A DNA stretch of 31,024 bases from a virus: positions 1 through 31,024 of the IMG/VR virus record IMGVR_UViG_3300042987_000690; one strand, 5' to 3'. Every line of letters begins with the position of its first letter. The stretch's first letter is position 1. This document shows, piece after piece, positions 1 to 31,024 of the stretch. The notes under the pieces were generated by a model that ran no database searches, had not been told where the DNA came from, and saw only the letters and a program-made list of their open reading frames with translations. The position numbers and the translations under genes are program-made.

Positions 1-102
1 TTTATGATTGCACTTGAAGATGAGCGCGTGGAAGCGATGAAAAAAGTGTATGGTCGAGCGGGTTTTAGGCCGCTGGAAAGAACGTTTATCAAGGAGTTAT
101 GA
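1..102 (+). CDS. 3' end of GNAT acetyltransferase gene (duplicate of the gene at the window's end)
   Basis: Reading frame 1 is open from the first base to TGA at 100-102 and gives the last 33 residues of the acetyltransferase that is complete near the other end of the window. The two copies differ at two bases: one synonymous (Val codon) and one changing Ala to Thr. This is the same locus seen twice because a circular genome was written out linearly, not a second gene. Confidence 0.9.
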   Translation, partial: FMIALEDERVEAMKKVYGRAGFRPLERTFIKEL

Positions 103-144
103 CATGGCAATAGGGACAGGAACCGCGCTATTGCTAGGCGCTGG
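1..144. repeat. Terminal direct repeat, left copy
   Basis: These 144 bases match 30881-31024 except at positions 30 (g here, t at 30910) and 34 (g here, a at 30914). This is overlap from a circular or circularly permuted genome, which fits P22-like headful packaging better than a fixed terminal repeat, because the repeat starts and ends inside genes. Confidence 0.93.
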
Positions 145-2508: not shown

Positions 2509-5108
2509 TGGCCACAGAACTTTACGATCCAGCAAGCATCGATGCCGCTGTTAATGACGCGTTTGGTGTAAAGCCGCCAAAGCAACAACCGCTGCCAAAA
2601 CAACAACCGGCACCGCTGCGAACCAACAATCCAGGCGCGTTGATGCCTGGTGGCAAGATGGCGCAGTACGGCAGCATGGAAGAAGGGCTGCAAGCACTTG
2701 ATCGCAATTTGCAATCCTATGGCAAGCAAGGCATCAATACGCTGGCTGGAGTCATTAACAAATGGTCGCCAGGCAACGCACCAGGCAACACGCCGCAAGC
2801 CACGCAAAACTACATCAACCATGTAGCCAAGGTCACAGGCTTAAAGCCAGACCAACCCATCGATTTATCCAATCCATTGGTGCGGCTGCAGCTGACCGCT
2901 GGCATTACGCAATTTGAGAGCGGGCCTGGTGCGATTTATGGGACACCACCAAGACAAGCGGCCACAGCAAAACCGCCGAGTTTGCCGCGGAGCATGCAAC
3001 CGAGAGAAGAAACAAACATACCGCGAGTAGAAGTATCCGGTGTTAGCGAAGAATCCATGCGGGCAGCGGAGAAAACGCCAAGTCAATTGACCGTCGAAGA
3101 CTTGATGAAACCGGAAGCCATTGATGCAGCAGTGGCTGAAGCCTTTAGTACACCGCCGCCGCCGACTAAAACCGAAAAAGTCGCCAGTGCTGTGGGCGAA
3201 AAAGTGCGATCCTTTTTGCGCGGCAGCGCAGCATTGGCTGACACGCTTTATAGTCCAGTGCCCGCGGTGGCTGGCATGGTGACCTATGCCGGAGCAAGAG
3301 CGGCAGGCGAAACACCGGAGCAAGCTGCAGCACGCCAGGCGAGTGTGGTGGGCACGCTGGAAAGGCCAGTAGGCAAGGCAGCAGGCGTGACAGAAACGCC
3401 GGAATACAAGGGCGAAGCATCACAGCGTTTGATGGAATTTATTGGTGAAAACGTTGCCAAGGGCGCAGATTGGATCAGTGAAAAAACAGGCATGCCCAAG
3501 GCCGATGTTGAGTATTACTTAAACCTTGGAATGACGGCAGCGCCGTTTTCACGCACCGGTCAACGTGTTGGGCAGGCAGTTAGAACGGAGGCGGGCTACG
3601 CAGCTGAAGCAGCGCTTACAGGCGCAAGGGCAGTTACACCGCAAGTGATACAGCGGCCCATCGCACGAGCTGCGGAAGCGGTTGCACCAGGTGTAACCCA
3701 ACGACCGATACAGCCAACACCGATTACACCACCGGTTACACCATCAGTCACACCAAGAGTTGAACCGCAAGTGCCCGCATTTGGCAGTGTGGGTGCGGCA
3801 GCTGTGCCGGATGTCGTAACCATTCGCCAGGCATTGCAATCAGCTACGCCGGAATTTCAGCAGCTGTACGGCAATATGCCTTTGGACAAAGCAAATAGGC
3901 CGGTAGTCATGCGGCATTTAGAAGCGGATTCATTGCCAGTGCCGGTGCGTTTAAGTGAAGGCCAAGCAACAGGCGATCCGGTAAAGTTATCAAGAGAGCA
4001 AAACTTACGCGGCAGTCAACCCGCGTATGCACAACGTTTTAATAAGCAAAACGAGCAGTTGGTAGAAAACGTTCCATTGATCCGCGAACGCGCAGCGCCG
4101 GATGTTTATGCCACAAAAACAATAGAATCAAGCCAAGCGTTGATTGATGCTTACAAAGCCTTGGATGAAAAAAAAGTACAAGCAATTGAAGATGCAAGCA
4201 CAAGATTAAAAGACGCGGCGGGCGGTGAACTTCCGCTTGATTCAAAAATTATATTGGAAAATGTAAATAACAAACTAAAAAAAGAATTGATGTTGTCTGA
4301 AGCGGAAAAAAACGTCAGTCAGTACAAAGAACTTCAAAGGTTGGCCGCAGAAGGTCAAATGACGTTTGATGAATATTTATCGTTGTACCGAAACACTAGC
4401 AAAATAGCGGGAACCGCTGCTGATGGAAATATTCGTCATGCTGCGGGGGTAATGCTTAGAGAATTGGATAATATTCCTTTAACCAAGGAAACCGCTCATC
4501 TAAAACCTTTGGCAGATCAACGTCGAGCTTTAGCGCGGGAAAGATTTGACGCATTGAAAAAAGATCCAGCCTACAAAGCCGCAGTCGATGATACGGTGCC
4601 AGCAGATAAGTATTTTGATAAGTTTGTCATTAACGGCATCAACAAAAACATCAACACCATGGTCAACACGTTGGGCCGCGATTCAGTGTCACATCAACAC
4701 ATGAAAGCTGGCACGATCAATTGGTTGTCTGACAAAGCAGGCATCATTGATGGGCGCGGCAATTTTAGCCAGGCCAACTATAACAAGGCCGTAAAAAAAT
4801 TAGATGATGTGAAAAACTTTCAGGCTATTTTTGATCCTGAAAGTCAGCTGCAGCTGCGTACTTTGGGCAATGTGGCGGCCTACACGCAATTCCAGCCACG
4901 CGGATCATTTGTCAATAATTCCAATACCTTAGTGGCATACCTTGCAAGCAAGGGTGCGGGGGCACTAGAGCAGGCGGGCAATATCTTAGGGGTGAAAACT
5001 TTAGGCTATCCTTTAGGATCAGAAGCCAGGCGCGTGATTCGCAGCGCACGAGAAAGGCAAGAGGTCGAAAAATCGTTGAAACCTGGTGCGGGAAGTTTTG
5101 CGGAATAA
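2505..5108 (+). CDS. Putative ejection protein with N-terminal NNPG-type domain, gp16-like position
   Basis: This encodes 867 residues. ATG 2505 overlaps the previous stop as ATGA, and a second in-frame ATG at 2508 is equally possible. Residues about 38-145 hold a domain starting RTNNPGAL with a conserved-looking pattern (GLQALDRNLQSYGKQG, then INKWSP and YINHVA). This type of domain occurs in phage virion proteins suspected of cell-wall activity. A Pro-rich linker, a small-residue hydrophobic region (about 235-275) and a long helical C-terminal half follow. The short motif IDAAV-x-x-AF occurs twice (about 11-19 and 205-213). As the last and largest of the three ejection genes it matches P22 gp16 in position. 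Cell-wall activity is a guess. Confidence 0.65.
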   Translation: MMATELYDPASIDAAVNDAFGVKPPKQQPLPKQQPAPLRTNNPGALMPGGKMAQYGSMEEGLQALDRNLQSYGKQGINTLAGVINKWSPGNAPGNTPQATQNYINHVAKVTGLKPDQPIDLSNPLVRLQLTAGITQFESGPGAIYGTPPRQAATAKPPSLPRSMQPREETNIPRVEVSGVSEESMRAAEKTPSQLTVEDLMKPEAIDAAVAEAFSTPPPPTKTEKVASAVGEKVRSFLRGSAALADTLYSPVPAVAGMVTYAGARAAGETPEQAAARQASVVGTLERPVGKAAGVTETPEYKGEASQRLMEFIGENVAKGADWISEKTGMPKADVEYYLNLGMTAAPFSRTGQRVGQAVRTEAGYAAEAALTGARAVTPQVIQRPIARAAEAVAPGVTQRPIQPTPITPPVTPSVTPRVEPQVPAFGSVGAAAVPDVVTIRQALQSATPEFQQLYGNMPLDKANRPVVMRHLEADSLPVPVRLSEGQATGDPVKLSREQNLRGSQPAYAQRFNKQNEQLVENVPLIRERAAPDVYATKTIESSQALIDAYKALDEKKVQAIEDASTRLKDAAGGELPLDSKIILENVNNKLKKELMLSEAEKNVSQYKELQRLAAEGQMTFDEYLSLYRNTSKIAGTAADGNIRHAAGVMLRELDNIPLTKETAHLKPLADQRRALARERFDALKKDPAYKAAVDDTVPADKYFDKFVINGINKNINTMVNTLGRDSVSHQHMKAGTINWLSDKAGIIDGRGNFSQANYNKAVKKLDDVKNFQAIFDPESQLQLRTLGNVAAYTQFQPRGSFVNNSNTLVAYLASKGAGALEQAGNILGVKTLGYPLGSEARRVIRSARERQEVEKSLKPGAGSFAE

Positions 5109-8190: not shown

Positions 8191-8268
8191 TCACAGATTG
8201 AAAAAAACAGCGCAGCCGAGGGCCACGCCGAACACAAGGGCAATCAACCAATCAATCAGCGTTTTCAT
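8191..8268 (-). CDS. 25-residue membrane peptide
   Basis: ATG 8268 overlaps the upstream stop as ATGA and is preceded by AAGGT. The frame gives MKTLIDWLIALVFGVALGCA followed by VFFNL and TGA at 8191-8193. This is a single hydrophobic helix with one charged N-terminal segment, so a one-pass membrane peptide. The next gene's ribosome binding site begins at its stop. Start, stop and spacing all fit a real gene; the function is unknown. Confidence 0.6.
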   Translation of the reverse strand: MKTLIDWLIALVFGVALGCAVFFNL

Positions 8269-8843
8269 GCTGCAACCTTGCCTACGCTGTTGTAGCCGTA
8301 ACCGTCATCACCAAGAAACGTCACGCGGTTGAAAGTTTTGCTTTCTGCGGCATCGTTTTCGCTATAAGCAAAACAAGCATCGTTCATCATGTTGCCGATG
8401 TACCGGTTGTCGAAGCCACGTTTTTGTGCGTCATAGCTGATGTTGATGGTGCTGACGTAAGCGCCGAATTTGTCATCGTTGATTTGGATGGCATTGCCGA
8501 GATCGTATTTGTCGCAGACGTACTTAGCGATGGCCGTCAAAGCACGATAAGAAAACGACCGGTTGACAAAGATGTAGTCAGCGCCGAAAGACACGGGTTG
8601 GCCGTCAAGGGCGCTGTAGTTGGTGCCTTTGTAGTCGGTCATGCCGCAAAAGTAAGAACCTTCGAACACGCCGACGATGGCTTTGACTTGCGCGGAAGAC
8701 GGGCCATCGGTGTAGGACACGTTGATGCTTGCGCCACCAGCGTAAACGCTAGATTTGACGCTGAACTTGACACCAGGGAATGCCTCTTTGAGTGCAGCGC
8801 GAACAAGTTTGGCGGTGTCGGCGCAACTGAGATACTGTTTCAT
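8265..8843 (-). CDS. LPD29-domain protein
   Basis: This encodes 192 residues with AAGGA 9 bases before ATG 8843. The N-terminus (MKQYLSCADTAKLVRAALKE followed by AFPGVKFSVKSSVYAGGASI) is the pattern of LPD29, a domain first described as a part of very large phage and plasmid polyvalent proteins. Here it stands alone with a C-terminal extension containing YDAQKRGFDNRY. LPD proteins are thought to act early in infection, but no biochemical role is established. The gene has its own near-consensus promoter and a leader shared with the gene upstream. Confidence 0.75.
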   Translation of the reverse strand: MKQYLSCADTAKLVRAALKEAFPGVKFSVKSSVYAGGASINVSYTDGPSSAQVKAIVGVFEGSYFCGMTDYKGTNYSALDGQPVSFGADYIFVNRSFSYRALTAIAKYVCDKYDLGNAIQINDDKFGAYVSTINISYDAQKRGFDNRYIGNMMNDACFAYSENDAAESKTFNRVTFLGDDGYGYNSVGKVAA

Positions 8844-9235: not shown

Positions 9236-9394
9236 ATGGACAAACAAACTGCAATTCAGAAAGCGGGATCGGCCATGGCGCTGGCGAAGTTGTTAGGCAT
9301 CAAGCGCCAAGCGATCAGTCAATGGGGTGAAGCGCTGCCGCCAGCCAGAGTGTGGCAGCTGAAGGCGTTGAAGCCCGAGTGGTTTAAGAATTAA
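9236..9394 (+). CDS. cro: Cro-like transcriptional regulator
   Basis: This encodes 52 residues: MDKQTAIQKAGSAMALAKLL, then GIKRQAISQWGEALPPARVW and a short basic end. The helix-turn-helix spans about 13-31 (ALAKLLGIKRQAISQW), and 'LPPARVWQL' is the usual continuation in the small Cro/YdaS-like family. It is the first rightward gene beside a divergent promoter pair, the position of cro in lambdoid phages. No CI-like partner gene is visible. The only upstream purine-rich site (AAAGGTGG) is 14 bases from the ATG, so translation may be leaderless or inefficient. Confidence 0.8.
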   Translation: MDKQTAIQKAGSAMALAKLLGIKRQAISQWGEALPPARVWQLKALKPEWFKN

Positions 9395-9396
9395 GG

Positions 9397-9458
9397 AAAC
9401 ACGGCTAGGTTGGAAGTCATGAGCCAACTGAAAGGCGTACCGCCCGCTTGCCGTGTTT
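9397..9458 (+). other. Three-armed RNA fold after cro, possible terminator or attenuator
   Basis: AAACACGGC (9397-9405) pairs with GCCGTGTTT (9450-9458). Inside are two arms: GGTTGG 9408-9413 with CCAACT 9424-9429, and GGCG 9434-9437 with CGCC 9441-9444. The outer stem ends in TTTTCTTT. It starts 2 bases after the cro stop, where lambda has tR1. It may be an attenuator controlling entry into the replication genes; a three-way fold is unusual for a plain terminator. Confidence 0.45.
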
Positions 9459-9488: not shown

Positions 9489-10253
9489 ATGCATTACTAC
9501 CAGCATCACATCGGTGACTTTATAAAGGCTACGGCTAGGCTATCAGATAGCCAAACGATGGCCTATTTACGATTGTTGTGGATGTATTACGACAGCGAAA
9601 AACCGCTACCAAACAACACAAAAGTGCTTGCATTTCAAGTTGGCGCAAGCGTGGAAGATGTGGATTTGCTGTTGATAAGTTTTTTTACATTAGCAGATGA
9701 TGGTTGGCACCAAGCGCGATGTGATCGAGAAATTGAAGACTATCGCGTTTTTTTGTCTAAAAAAGCTAACGCTGGTCGAGCATCTGCTGAACGTCGGAAG
9801 AACATTAGTTCAACAGGTGTTGAACAGGTGTTCAACGGGCGTTCAACGGACGTTCAACTAACCAATAACCATAAACCAATAACCATTAACCATAAACCAA
9901 TAAAAAATACTAAGGCGACTGTCGTCGCCGCGCCTGACGGCGTTAGTAGTGACACATGGGATGCGTTTGTTGTTTTGAGGCAAGCCAAAAAAGCGCCAGT
10001 GACAAAACGCGCCTTGGATGGCATACAAGCGGAAGCAACCAAGGCTGGCTGGACGTTGGATGCAGCCATGGCTGAGATGGCTGCGCGAGGTTGGACAGGG
10101 TTTAAGGCGAAATGGGTTCAGGAACGTCTTACAGCCTCTCAGGAGCGACGAAACACGATGGATGCACTTACCCGTGGTCTAGCCACGCCAAAGCCGCAGA
10201 AGCCGTTTTGGAGCGTTACAGAGGCATTGGGGGTGAACGATGTGGAAGGCTGA
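9489..10253 (+). CDS. DUF1376 replication protein (lambda O-like role)
   Basis: This encodes 254 residues from ATG 9489, preceded by GGAAAGG. Residues 2-90 form a DUF1376 domain (MHYYQHHIGDFIKATARLSD, then MAYLRLLWMYYDSEKPLP and WHQARCDREIEDY). This domain is found in phage replication and primosome-like proteins. A linker at 105-140 is encoded by repeat arrays, and a C-terminal helical domain follows. As in lambda O, the probable origin lies within the gene. It overlaps the next gene by 14 bases, which may be its helicase-loading partner. Confidence 0.75.
   Translation: MHYYQHHIGDFIKATARLSDSQTMAYLRLLWMYYDSEKPLPNNTKVLAFQVGASVEDVDLLLISFFTLADDGWHQARCDREIEDYRVFLSKKANAGRASAERRKNISSTGVEQVFNGRSTDVQLTNNHKPITINHKPIKNTKATVVAAPDGVSSDTWDAFVVLRQAKKAPVTKRALDGIQAEATKAGWTLDAAMAEMAARGWTGFKAKWVQERLTASQERRNTMDALTRGLATPKPQKPFWSVTEALGVNDVEG
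9808..9858 (+). repeat. Iteron array: five 7-mers phased every 11 bases
   Basis: GTTCAAC occurs at 9808, 9830, 9841 and 9852, and its reverse complement GTTGAAC at 9819. All five starts are exactly 11 bases apart, about one helical turn, so a protein would see them on one face of the DNA. The array lies in the linker of the replication gene. It is a good candidate for the initiator binding site of the phage origin. Confidence 0.7.
9859..9908 (+). repeat. AT-rich repeats beside the iterons, candidate unwinding element
   Basis: AACCATAAACCAATAA occurs at 9867-9882 and 9888-9903, a 21-base period, with related ACCAATAA units before and between. The block has almost no G on the top strand and encodes the repeated peptide NHKPI. 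An AT-rich repeated stretch directly after iterons is the usual layout of an origin's unwinding element. Confidence 0.6.
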
Positions 10254-10629
10254 AGACTTTTGTGATCCGGATACCGGATTTGACTACGTGTTCACGAAAA
10301 TGAATGCGATCTATGGCGCGATGTTTGCAAACTTTTGGCGTGATGTCGATCCGGCGATGATTCGCCAGGTGTGGAAGGATGCCTGTGATCGTGGGTTGAC
10401 CTACCGACCAAAGATGGACTATGCCTTGCGGTATATCGATCCTGAGCGCCCACCGTCAGCGCTGGCTTTTGCGAAGTTGTTGAACGAAGGGCCGGTGATT
10501 CCTGACAAACCGAATACGCAGATTGAGCGGCAAAAGACGCAAGCGGAGCTGGCTGAAGACAAGCGCCGTGGTGACCTGGCGCGTGCCCAGCTGCGGGAGA
10601 TGTTGGCCGGTATGAGGATGCCGAAATGA
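10240..10629 (+). CDS. Possible lambda P-like replication partner
   Basis: This encodes 129 residues, with GGGGGTGAACG before ATG 10240, overlapping the DUF1376 gene. It contains a helical stretch (FTKMNAIYGAMFANFWRDVD, then IRQVWKDACDRGLTYRP) followed by 'ERPPSALAFAKLL'. This arrangement recalls phage P-type helicase loaders, whose central part has 'W...F......G' and a proline-rich turn before a final helix. The position straight after the initiator supports that. It is much shorter than lambda P (233 residues), so the call is tentative. Confidence 0.45.
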   Translation: MWKAEDFCDPDTGFDYVFTKMNAIYGAMFANFWRDVDPAMIRQVWKDACDRGLTYRPKMDYALRYIDPERPPSALAFAKLLNEGPVIPDKPNTQIERQKTQAELAEDKRRGDLARAQLREMLAGMRMPK

Positions 10630-12766: not shown

Positions 12767-12997
12767 ATGATGAAAAAAGACAATGCAGAGATGCAGCCAG
12801 CGGGTTATGGTTACGGCAGCAATGCCAAGATGCCCAAGGGCGCAGACGCAGCGGATGCCAACGGTAACCGCCGTGAAAAAGTGGTCAATGGTATTGGCAT
12901 GGGCAAAGCCGATGGTGTGGGTTCTGACATGCCATTTGATGGCGGGCGCATGAAGGGCGTTTGCTATACGCATGAACGCAAGTCTTACCAAAAGTAA
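12767..12997 (+). CDS. Small Gly/Lys-rich protein of unknown function
   Basis: This encodes 76 residues from ATG 12767 (or 12770), with AAAGGA upstream. It is low in hydrophobic residues, rich in Gly, Lys, Met and Asp, and probably disordered (GYGYGSNAKMPKGADAADAN), ending CYTHERKSYQK. It is TAATG-coupled to the zeta-like gene, so it may be its partner or a small virion protein. It does not resemble the epsilon antitoxin. Confidence 0.6.
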   Translation: MMKKDNAEMQPAGYGYGSNAKMPKGADAADANGNRREKVVNGIGMGKADGVGSDMPFDGGRMKGVCYTHERKSYQK

Positions 12998-13938
12998 TGG
13001 CTACGACATCGCTAGCTGACCTGGCAGGCAGAGGCCAGCAGCCGATACAGGCTGATTTAGCGGCGATGGTGCCGCAGCCGCCGATGGCCGCACCGATGGC
13101 TGCGCCTATGGGGGGAGGTATCAACAAGCAAATCGAGCAAGAATATTTTGATCGACTTGACAACGACTTTGAGGGTTTGAAGTCTGAGTATGCCCAGTTA
13201 GTGAATGCCCGCGGTGAGAATGTAACCGATGGCGGGCGAATCTTAAACACGGATGATGCGCGGGAGCTGTCACCGCACTATCGGGCAGACCGCACCAAAT
13301 CGGCAGACGTTCACGAACCGTCATCAGCGCTTGTTAAGCAAATGTATGCCGACAAACTGGCCAATCCTACGCCGCCAGGCATGGATAACACGGTTGTGTT
13401 CACGGCTGGCGGTACGGGCGCGGGTAAGACCACAGGTTTACAGCAAGCCATGGAAGTCGATCCGCGATTGGCGCAAGCGGAAATTGTTTACGATACAAAC
13501 ATGAATAAGTTTGGCTCTGCAGACCAAAAGATACGCCAGGCGCTGGATGCCGGTCGGAATGTGAGCGTGGTTTATACATTTCGAGATCCGACTGAGGCGC
13601 TGACTGAAGGTGCGTTAACGCGAGCAAGCCGCATGGAAGCCGAGCTTGGAACCGGTCGAACCGTGCCGCTTGATGAGCACTTCAAAACCCATGTGGGCGC
13701 TTATGAAGTGATGAAACAACTTCAGGATCAATACGGTGACGATCACCGATTTTCGATGAAGATCATTGATAACAGCCGTGGTAGAAACCGCGCACGAGTG
13801 GTAAGCAGCCTTGACGAATTACCGAAGTTGGATCATACTAAAGTTAGAAAGGAGCTTGATGATGCACTCGAAAATGCCTACCGTACCGGAAAAATTAGCC
13901 AAGCCATCTACCAAGGAACGCGTGTTAACGCCCGCTGA
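12997..13938 (+). CDS. Zeta-toxin-like P-loop protein
   Basis: This encodes 313 residues. Residues 25-41 are Pro/Ala/Met-rich and disordered. A helical part contains 'ARELSPHYRADRTKSADVHE' (88-107), followed by VVFTAGGTGAGKTTG with the Walker A loop at 138-145, then YDTNM at 165-169. Zeta toxins have the same order: a helical region, a P-loop and an aspartate beside the P-loop strand. They phosphorylate cell-wall sugar precursors. The 'SPHYRADR...VHEP' lead-in is seen in zeta-like domains of phage and polymorphic-toxin proteins. No antitoxin is visible. It lies among late genes, so a virion-borne or host-attacking kinase are both possible; the substrate is unknown. Confidence 0.7.
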   Translation: MATTSLADLAGRGQQPIQADLAAMVPQPPMAAPMAAPMGGGINKQIEQEYFDRLDNDFEGLKSEYAQLVNARGENVTDGGRILNTDDARELSPHYRADRTKSADVHEPSSALVKQMYADKLANPTPPGMDNTVVFTAGGTGAGKTTGLQQAMEVDPRLAQAEIVYDTNMNKFGSADQKIRQALDAGRNVSVVYTFRDPTEALTEGALTRASRMEAELGTGRTVPLDEHFKTHVGAYEVMKQLQDQYGDDHRFSMKIIDNSRGRNRARVVSSLDELPKLDHTKVRKELDDALENAYRTGKISQAIYQGTRVNAR

Positions 13939-16594: not shown

Positions 16595-17049
16595 AAGGCA
16601 GACCAACAAAATATAAGCCGGAGTTTGCCGATAAGATGGTGGAGTTTTTCAGCCAGCCGCCCATCAGAGAAGTCACTACGGTAGACGCTAAAGGCAACGA
16701 AACCACGCAAGTGCTGCCAGGCCATTTCCCAACCCTAGCAAGGTTTGCGACCAACATCGGGGTGACTAAAGACACCTTACACGATTGGGCAACTGCTAAA
16801 CATATTGAAACAGGCGAGCTAAAACATCCTGACTTTTCATCTGCCTACAAAAAAGCCAAAGATTTGCAAGAGGCAAACCTGGTAGAAGGCACGATTGCAG
16901 GGGCGTACAACAGCACGTTTGCGATCTTTACCGCCAAGAATGTTTTGGGTTGGCGCGATAAAGTCGAGCAAGAGATTACGGGCAAAGACGGTGGCCCATT
17001 GCAGGCCATTCAAGTGACTTTTGTGGCACCGGATGGATCAGCCAGTTGA
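16591..17049 (+). CDS. terS: Terminase small subunit
   Basis: This encodes 152 residues. GRPTKYKPEFADKMVEFF at the start, an HTH region at about 50-72 (PTLARFATNIGVTKDTLHDW), then a helical part (HPDFSSAYKKAKDLQEANLV) and 'AIFTAKNVLGWRDKVEQE' are the standard plan of small terminases that recognise the packaging site. It lies directly before the large subunit. A pac site, if present in this gene as in P22, cannot be picked out by eye. Confidence 0.85.
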   Translation: MKGRPTKYKPEFADKMVEFFSQPPIREVTTVDAKGNETTQVLPGHFPTLARFATNIGVTKDTLHDWATAKHIETGELKHPDFSSAYKKAKDLQEANLVEGTIAGAYNSTFAIFTAKNVLGWRDKVEQEITGKDGGPLQAIQVTFVAPDGSAS

Positions 17050-30530: not shown

Positions 30531-30982
30531 ACGTGCGTCAAGTCACTGCGAAGGATTTGCCAAGATATTTGGAGCTGGCGGCGCAGTTCCATGAGGCATC
30601 ACCGATGCAACATGTGGCAGCGTTTGATAAAGAAGGCATGTTGGAATTTTTAACCAACGCCCTGGAGAAAGAAAACATTCTTTTGTTAGTGGGCGAGCTG
30701 AATGACGAGATTGTAGGTATCACATCATGTTTGTTGTATCCGCTTTATTTCAGCCCGAACTACCAAGTGGCGCAAGAATTGTGGTGGTGGTTAACGCCTA
30801 ACGCACGAGGTAGCGGTCTTGGCAAGGCCATGTTAAAGACGATGGAGCTTTGGGCTAAGAACAAAAATGCCAAGGCATTGTTTATGATTGCACTTGAAGA
30901 TGAGCGCGTTGAAACGATGAAAAAAGTGTATGGTCGAGCGGGTTTTAGGCCGCTGGAAAGAACGTTTATCAAGGAGTTATGA
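30527..30982 (+). CDS. GNAT-family acetyltransferase
   Basis: This encodes 151 residues and starts in an ATGA overlap. 'QELWWWLTPNARGSGLG' holds the acetyl-CoA loop (R-G-S-G-L-G), followed by 'KAMLKTMELWAKNKNAKALF' and 'KVYGRAGFRPLERTFIKE', the normal end of the fold. It would acetylate an amine, substrate unknown. It lies between the needle-like gene and the ejection genes, where P22 carries gp14. Confidence 0.85.
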   Translation: MNVRQVTAKDLPRYLELAAQFHEASPMQHVAAFDKEGMLEFLTNALEKENILLLVGELNDEIVGITSCLLYPLYFSPNYQVAQELWWWLTPNARGSGLGKAMLKTMELWAKNKNAKALFMIALEDERVETMKKVYGRAGFRPLERTFIKEL

Positions 30983-31024
30983 CATGGCAATAGGGACAGG
31001 AACCGCGCTATTGCTAGGCGCTGG
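30881..31024. repeat. Terminal direct repeat, right copy
   Basis: Same 144 bases as 1-144, with t at 30910 and a at 30914 where the left copy has g and g. It includes the end of the acetyltransferase gene and the start of the first ejection gene. Confidence 0.93.
30984..31024 (+). CDS. 5' end of the first ejection-protein gene (duplicate of the gene at 104)
   Basis: ATG 30984 with AAGGAG upstream opens the same frame as at 104; the window ends after 13 complete codons. Confidence 0.9.
   Translation, partial: MAIGTGTALLLGA

Follow-up and report, generated by a model that had tools for sequence, protein, structure and literature searches.

The gene encoding the DUF1376 protein of this phage very probably carries the phage's own replication origin within its coding sequence. 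The window, that is the whole stretch of DNA that was analysed, consists of 31,024 nt and corresponds to positions 1 to 31,024 of the IMG/VR virus record IMGVR_UViG_3300042987_000690. The DUF1376 gene is given here with its ATG start, and a GTG start at 9453 is likewise open. The features of the region are as follows.

9489..10253, + strand: DUF1376 gene, proposed replication initiator and also origin carrier (Pfam, PHROGs; ATG start)
9492..9737, + strand: DUF1376 domain, residues 2–83, a winged-helix-like fold and then the start of the long helix 76–108
9774..9803, + strand: basic segment GRASAERRKN, residues 96–105, closing the long helix and proposed to read the iteron word
9808..9858, + strand: iteron-like array, five GTTNAAC sites with the centres C, G, C, C, C, 11-bp spacing, three codon phases
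9819..9900, + strand: codons of the disordered linker, residues 111–135 below pLDDT 50 in the AF2 model
9859..9903, + strand: six AACCANN heptads, proposed unwinding element, 7-bp spacing, G-free, 73% A+T
9948..10184, + strand: C-terminal helical domain, residues 154–232, common to O-like initiators (PHROGs, AF2)
10240..10629, + strand: putative P-like helicase loader gene, with a 14 bp overlap with the 3' end of the initiator gene (family-level homology)

The array is directly visible in the DNA. An earlier sequence-only reading had placed five sites phased by 11 bp at 9808, 9819, 9830, 9841 and 9852, and all five were confirmed; they occupy codons 107–124 of the DUF1376 gene and fall in codon phases 1, 0, 2, 1 and 0. 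The copy at 9819 had been described as inverted, and GTTGAAC is indeed present there, but because GTTNAAC is palindromic around its centre the copy differs merely by a C/G switch at that position. The array is the longest 11-bp-phased run in the whole window, and outside it, near the gene, GTTNAAC is found only as single, scattered copies. A terminator-like match to a hairpin at 9808–9825 was rejected, the stretch being two of the phased palindromic sites instead. That coding alone would not produce the phasing had also been claimed, and this held: in 20,000 synonymous recodings that followed local codon usage, no 11-bp run exceeded three sites; three were reached 57 times, and four or five never. 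For any masked 7-mer at any lag of 7–24 the null likewise stayed at three or below in 2,000 synonymous recodings.

Next to the array, AACCATAAACCAATAA occurs twice, 21 bp apart, at 9867 and 9888, as had been reported. The description as a 16-mer repeat is correct but understates the structure, which has six heptads with AACCA starts at 9860, 9867, 9874, 9881, 9888 and 9895, exactly 7 bp apart. The low G content noted for this strand was borne out, with a composition of A25 C12 G0 T8 for 9859–9903, and no other G-free window of 45 nt exists on either strand of the window. The A+T content of the tract is among the higher values of the window without being the top, around 4231–4300 being higher. 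The GC skew, which is uninformative here, shows no sign change at the array.

Selection at the DNA level, on spacing as well as on the word, is observed in close relatives. When homologues are aligned, the comparison by which the origin-like reading could be checked, the 11-bp phasing is kept while the protein of the linker varies. Across 80 distinct same-class arrays, conservation of the outer bases of each site is 69–100% in every codon phase, mostly above 80% with the exception of one position of site 5, and the 4-bp spacers and the site centres are variable. Sites 2 and 3 freely accept either C or G as the centre, but site 4, at which a G would create TGA, has C in 47 of its 49 exact copies. 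Adjacent spacings in 43 distinct same-class relatives are 11 bp in 72 of 85 cases and 22 bp in the other 13, with no exception. Site orientation, and sometimes codon phase, differs among close relatives, and a diverged clade (L285, L288, L294-L305) with domains 37–43% identical has kept the array in another codon phase. When 3.1 kb was compared by blastn with 50,697 phage records, the alignments were limited to the array and the heptads, with 79–88% identity, the flanking code remaining unaligned because it is too diverged.

The periodicity extends to the family as a whole. In 38 DUF1376 genes under 70% identical, the self-identity of the linker was determined lag by lag and set against codon shuffles with unchanged protein, and the spectrum peaks at 7 and 11 bp with a combined Z of 13.2 each, with further peaks at the multiples 14, 21 and 22. 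In the 32 longest of the 38 genes the peaks at 7 and 11 are confined to the linker, the regions encoding the DUF1376 domain and the C-terminus being flat. The first scan for relatives had two linker peptides among its six patterns, and the relatives found with it are thus biased towards presence of an array; scans with domain-only patterns and genome searches are without that bias, and 36 genes from domain-only patterns replicated the result with a Z of 12.8 at 7 and 8.1 at 11. As a control, the same method recovered from lambda O the known spacings of 20, 23 and 24, with no signal at 7 or 11.

In roughly one in four of the remote DUF1376 genes no clear 11-bp signal is seen. Homologues lacking phased repeats, which were named beforehand as evidence against an origin, were encountered only in the form of some remote DUF1376 genes, located mostly in alphaproteobacterial genomes. 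That exactly 11 bp is obligatory throughout the family was rejected, since the GGRP and ERQRR classes (named after a protein segment described below) deviate: in the former most spacings are 11 and some are 10 or 12, and the sites are 7, 9–12 or 17–18 bp apart in the latter. The ERQRR arrays are a second geometry within the DUF1376 family. This class is represented by L083, L266, L292, L302, L315, L318 and L341, and its arrays contain GTCAC/GTGAC words, often as GTCACGCGTGAC pairs, about 50 codons after the segment. AACCANN-like heptads recur on the same strand behind arrays of different words in most DUF1376 linkers, and some GGRP-class genes have CCCAAT hexads in place of heptads. One DUF1376 gene (L108:1501-2104) differs from the phased arrays elsewhere in that it has perfect 24-bp coding repeats (SMDSSMHS) in a row, and a scan with the GCTNAGC-class protein L099 retrieved no relatives.

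These data also bear on the possibility that the repeats exist at the protein level, with a repetitive linker peptide whose by-product is the periodicity in the DNA. Translation of the heptads does give a 7-residue repeat (TNNHKPI TINHKPI), but neither 11 nor 7 is a multiple of the codon length, the signal stands above nulls that preserve every residue, the codon phase in which this DNA is read varies and the linker is predicted to be disordered. A protein-level repeat is rejected by the synonymous nulls and is in our opinion scarcely conceivable.

The inferred protein shows similarity to DUF1376 over residues 2–83 (Pfam, E 8e-24), to the PHROGs 'primosomal protein' over residues 1–132 and to the PHROGs 'replication initiation O-like' (phrog_678, E 4e-19) over residues 109–222. 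AlphaFold2 predicts a winged-helix-like domain, a long helix at 76–108, a disordered linker at 111–135 and a helical C-terminal domain. The part of the protein predicted to be disordered is the part encoded by the array, and if the model is right the protein is free there to follow the demands of the DNA; the disorder of the linker is established as a prediction. A Foldseek search of the PDB with the window protein had winged-helix regulators leading the list, none of them below E 0.09, and with the model of an ERQRR-class protein it gave nothing useful. No relative of the window protein was found by sequence search of the PDB.

The basic segment GRASAERRKN closes the long helix and is separated from the array by 4 bp, and the equivalent helix of the ERQRR class spans 79–122 in the predicted model. 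Across the family the segment co-varies with the word of the array: the class GKASA (GKASAxxR) pairs with GTTNAAC, GGRP (GGRPKK) with AACCC/GGGTT, SAxxRW with GCGNNCGC-like words and ERQRRxRxRR with GTNACG. The window gene, with GRASAERRKN and GTTNAAC, is itself a matching pair. The first gene set served to define the classes by eye, and for around a quarter of the classified genes no word can be called. Prediction of the word from the segment class is correct in all 45 callable genes and in all 27 held-out genes, which were found after the words had been noticed, and the maxima reached in 10,000 permutations of these two sets were 25 and 17. Tree-based tests of co-change went in the expected direction for every class, none being significant alone because there are few well-supported branches. 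The co-variation is thus observed, and as evidence from sequences that the word is read by the segment it is strong but not proof; since the segment adjoins the array, part of the association could be due to inheritance as one block.

The last point opens for another reader of the word. The origin would then be as proposed here, but the winged-helix domain would recognize the word, and the segment would follow it only through DNA swaps in one block. With the segment ending 4 bp before the array the two can travel together, and the tree contains few well-supported independent changes. Against this, none of the 218 pairs with domains at least 50% identical and different segments share the top word, whereas 144 of the 294 pairs with the same segment and domains less than 40% identical (or with no BLAST match) do. 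In addition, phiLM21, YdaU and the L285 clade keep the word of their class despite a diverged segment and another codon phase. We consider reading by the winged-helix domain to be rather unlikely, and the segment remains the preferred reader.

The arrangement had been compared to that of lambda O, and with regard to architecture the comparison is justified. In both cases the array is located mid-gene in the linker between domains (codons 107–124 in the window gene, codons 117–145 for the lambda iterons), an AT-rich tract follows directly after the repeats (9859–9903 in the window) and a helicase-loader gene overlaps the 3' end of the initiator gene. The N-terminal part of lambda O also matches the O-like PHROG found for the C-terminal part of the window protein. 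Membership in the Phage_rep_O family, in contrast, cannot be upheld: by Pfam the N-terminal domain is DUF1376 and not Phage_rep_O (PF04492), the sites are 7 bp long and 11 bp apart as opposed to lambda iterons of 18 bp, which have internal inverted symmetry and are 20, 24 and 23 bp (about two turns) apart, and the tract consists of G-free AACCANN heptads where lambda has an A-rich tract. Direct BLASTP of the window protein against lambda O was not significant. Judging from the domain assignments, DUF1376 replaces the DNA-binding domain of lambda O, and the protein falls outside the Phage_rep_O family. The suggestion that the DUF1376 protein is the likely initiator is supported, with binding and origin activity being inferred.

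Homology to P-like loaders is observed for the gene downstream of the initiator at the level of its family (A5). Six of nine members match phrog_109, the P-like helicase loaders, a PHROG that includes lambda P, and alignment of the profile of the family with lambda P by hhalign covers 87 columns, with E 1.4e-5 and a probability of 80. The window copy alone gives no match and stays below the threshold for phrog_109, and direct BLASTP of the downstream protein to lambda P is not convincing alone, so that profile comparison was needed. The homologue in MW202520 is annotated as 'replication protein P', and on this homology the gene is classified as a lambda-P-like helicase loader. At other DUF1376 loci the next gene encodes a DnaC-like, a Toprim/helicase-like or a DnaG zinc-ribbon protein.

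The gene content of the window is that of a P22-like tailed phage, with Erf, a YqaJ exonuclease, a Cro-like regulator, a terminase and a P22-type portal, and the P22-Cro-like regulator gene (9236-9394) is located 95 bp upstream of the DUF1376 ATG. The array might be an operator for the replication genes, bound by this regulator or by the DUF1376 protein, with replication starting elsewhere. Intragenic phased palindromic sites could act by repressing elongation, and it is common for an origin to serve in regulation as well. However, a search for GTTNAAC in the intergenic region upstream of the DUF1376 gene found none, and beyond the array the word is single and scattered; the word tracks the DUF1376 protein's own segment across phages, and an operator leaves the conserved heptad tract and the P-like neighbour unexplained. 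We find an operator without origin function quite improbable. A site for partition, packaging (pac) or recombination that is recognized by some other protein of the phage is very improbable: such sites can be intragenic clusters of short repeats, but this one is located in the initiator gene of the replication module and not in the terminase region (the gene for the large subunit is at 17021), and its word co-varies with the DUF1376 protein.

An intragenic origin would work as follows. Copies of the initiator would bind the GTTNAAC sites, one per turn and along one face of the helix, since the sites are one turn of 11 bp apart, and the contact would be made by the basic segment GRASAERRKN, in which the long helix beyond the winged-helix-like DUF1376 domain terminates. 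Initiators packed side by side might strain and open the adjoining G-free AACCANN tract, the C-terminal domain should then recruit the P-like loader encoded next door, and through the loader the replicative helicase of the host would reach the opened strand. Two iterons beside the AT-rich region are enough for unwinding (PMC7466680), and the denser row of initiators proposed here would be another geometry for the same job. All of these steps, from binding and unwinding to the loading of the helicase and the start of replication, are inferred, and there are no binding, footprint, plasmid-replication or read-depth data. Nevertheless, we hold a lambda-O-like initiator with an intragenic origin, including this loading mechanism, to be highly likely.

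Initiators of iteron plasmids (RepA/RepE/TrfA type) use directly repeated sites beside an AT-rich unwinding element, and plasmid iterons are usually about 20 bp and located outside the rep coding region. The window resembles these systems in having repeated initiator sites next to an AT-rich element, but Pfam finds no Rep_3-type domain and no paired winged helices of the Rep_3/RepA type in the window protein, DUF1376 being its sole match.

A related arrangement is found in the Rac prophage, whose DUF1376 gene is ydaU (E. coli K-12 ydaU; L392:7120-7977). YdaU has the DUF1376 domain, a GKASVQARR segment and a DnaC-like gene next to it, and its gene contains five GTTNAAC sites with one mismatch each, spaced by 22, 11, 12 and 12 bp; nine of 5,000 synonymous shuffles reach five sites. 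It differs from the window gene by the degenerate sites, the 12-bp steps and the absence of clear heptads. The Rac prophage is reported to have an active origin, oriJ (PMC3945230), and the position of oriJ within Rac was not found in the open literature searched. The ydaU array is a candidate for its location.

The C-terminal half of YdaU is 50% identical (62/125) to that of Gifsy-2 O and 81% identical (101/125) to that of O of phage vB_EcoS-673R7. Gifsy-2 O and related lambdoid O proteins, about 50% identical to YdaU in this half, also have intragenic iterons and a DnaC-like gene next door, but the N-terminus of Gifsy-2 O is Phage_rep_O (PF04492 scored in the same Pfam test) and its six lambda-type iterons lie in two groups with 22 bp spacing. 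A shared C-terminus with a different N-terminus and a different array indicates that the DNA-binding domain and the array were exchanged together, and hence that DUF1376 and its array hold the place of the domain and iterons of lambda O. The O protein of vB_EcoS-673R7 (L393:754-1542) is O-like without a Pfam match at the N-terminus, and its linker contains the GTNAC-like words GGTTACAA, GTAACA and CGTTACA. It possibly has a third DNA-binding domain on the same C-terminus.

The origin type proposed for DUF1376 has short pseudo-palindromic words, one turn apart, in the codons of the linker, followed in most cases by AACCANN-like heptads. It is fairly likely, in our view, that DUF1376 defines a large and unrecognised class of phage initiators with its own origin type, with specificity residing in the ten-residue basic end of the helix, with segment and array swapped together and with a readable code from protein to DNA. 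The domain is at present annotated as of unknown function or as 'primosomal protein'; it is rarely mentioned in the open literature, where we found no mention linking it to an origin. If the proposal is true, the origins of many environmental and prophage genomes could be read directly from sequence, the origin word could be predicted from ten residues, and the long-known oriJ of the E. coli Rac prophage, unplaced as far as we could find, would have a concrete candidate. The paired segment and array would also constitute a natural experiment on joint change of initiator and origin specificity, since a stretch of about 80 bp in a single gene holds both.

Judged by its sequence, the contig probably represents a nearly complete genome of about 30.9 kb in circularly permuted form. 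The ends of the window (1-144 and 30881-31024) match at 98.6% over 144 bp, and IMG/VR classes the record as linear because this end repeat is inexact. Elsewhere in the window, an LPD29 protein is encoded on the minus strand at 8265-8843, and a 313-aa protein with a zeta-toxin-like kinase domain is encoded in the late region at 12997-13938.
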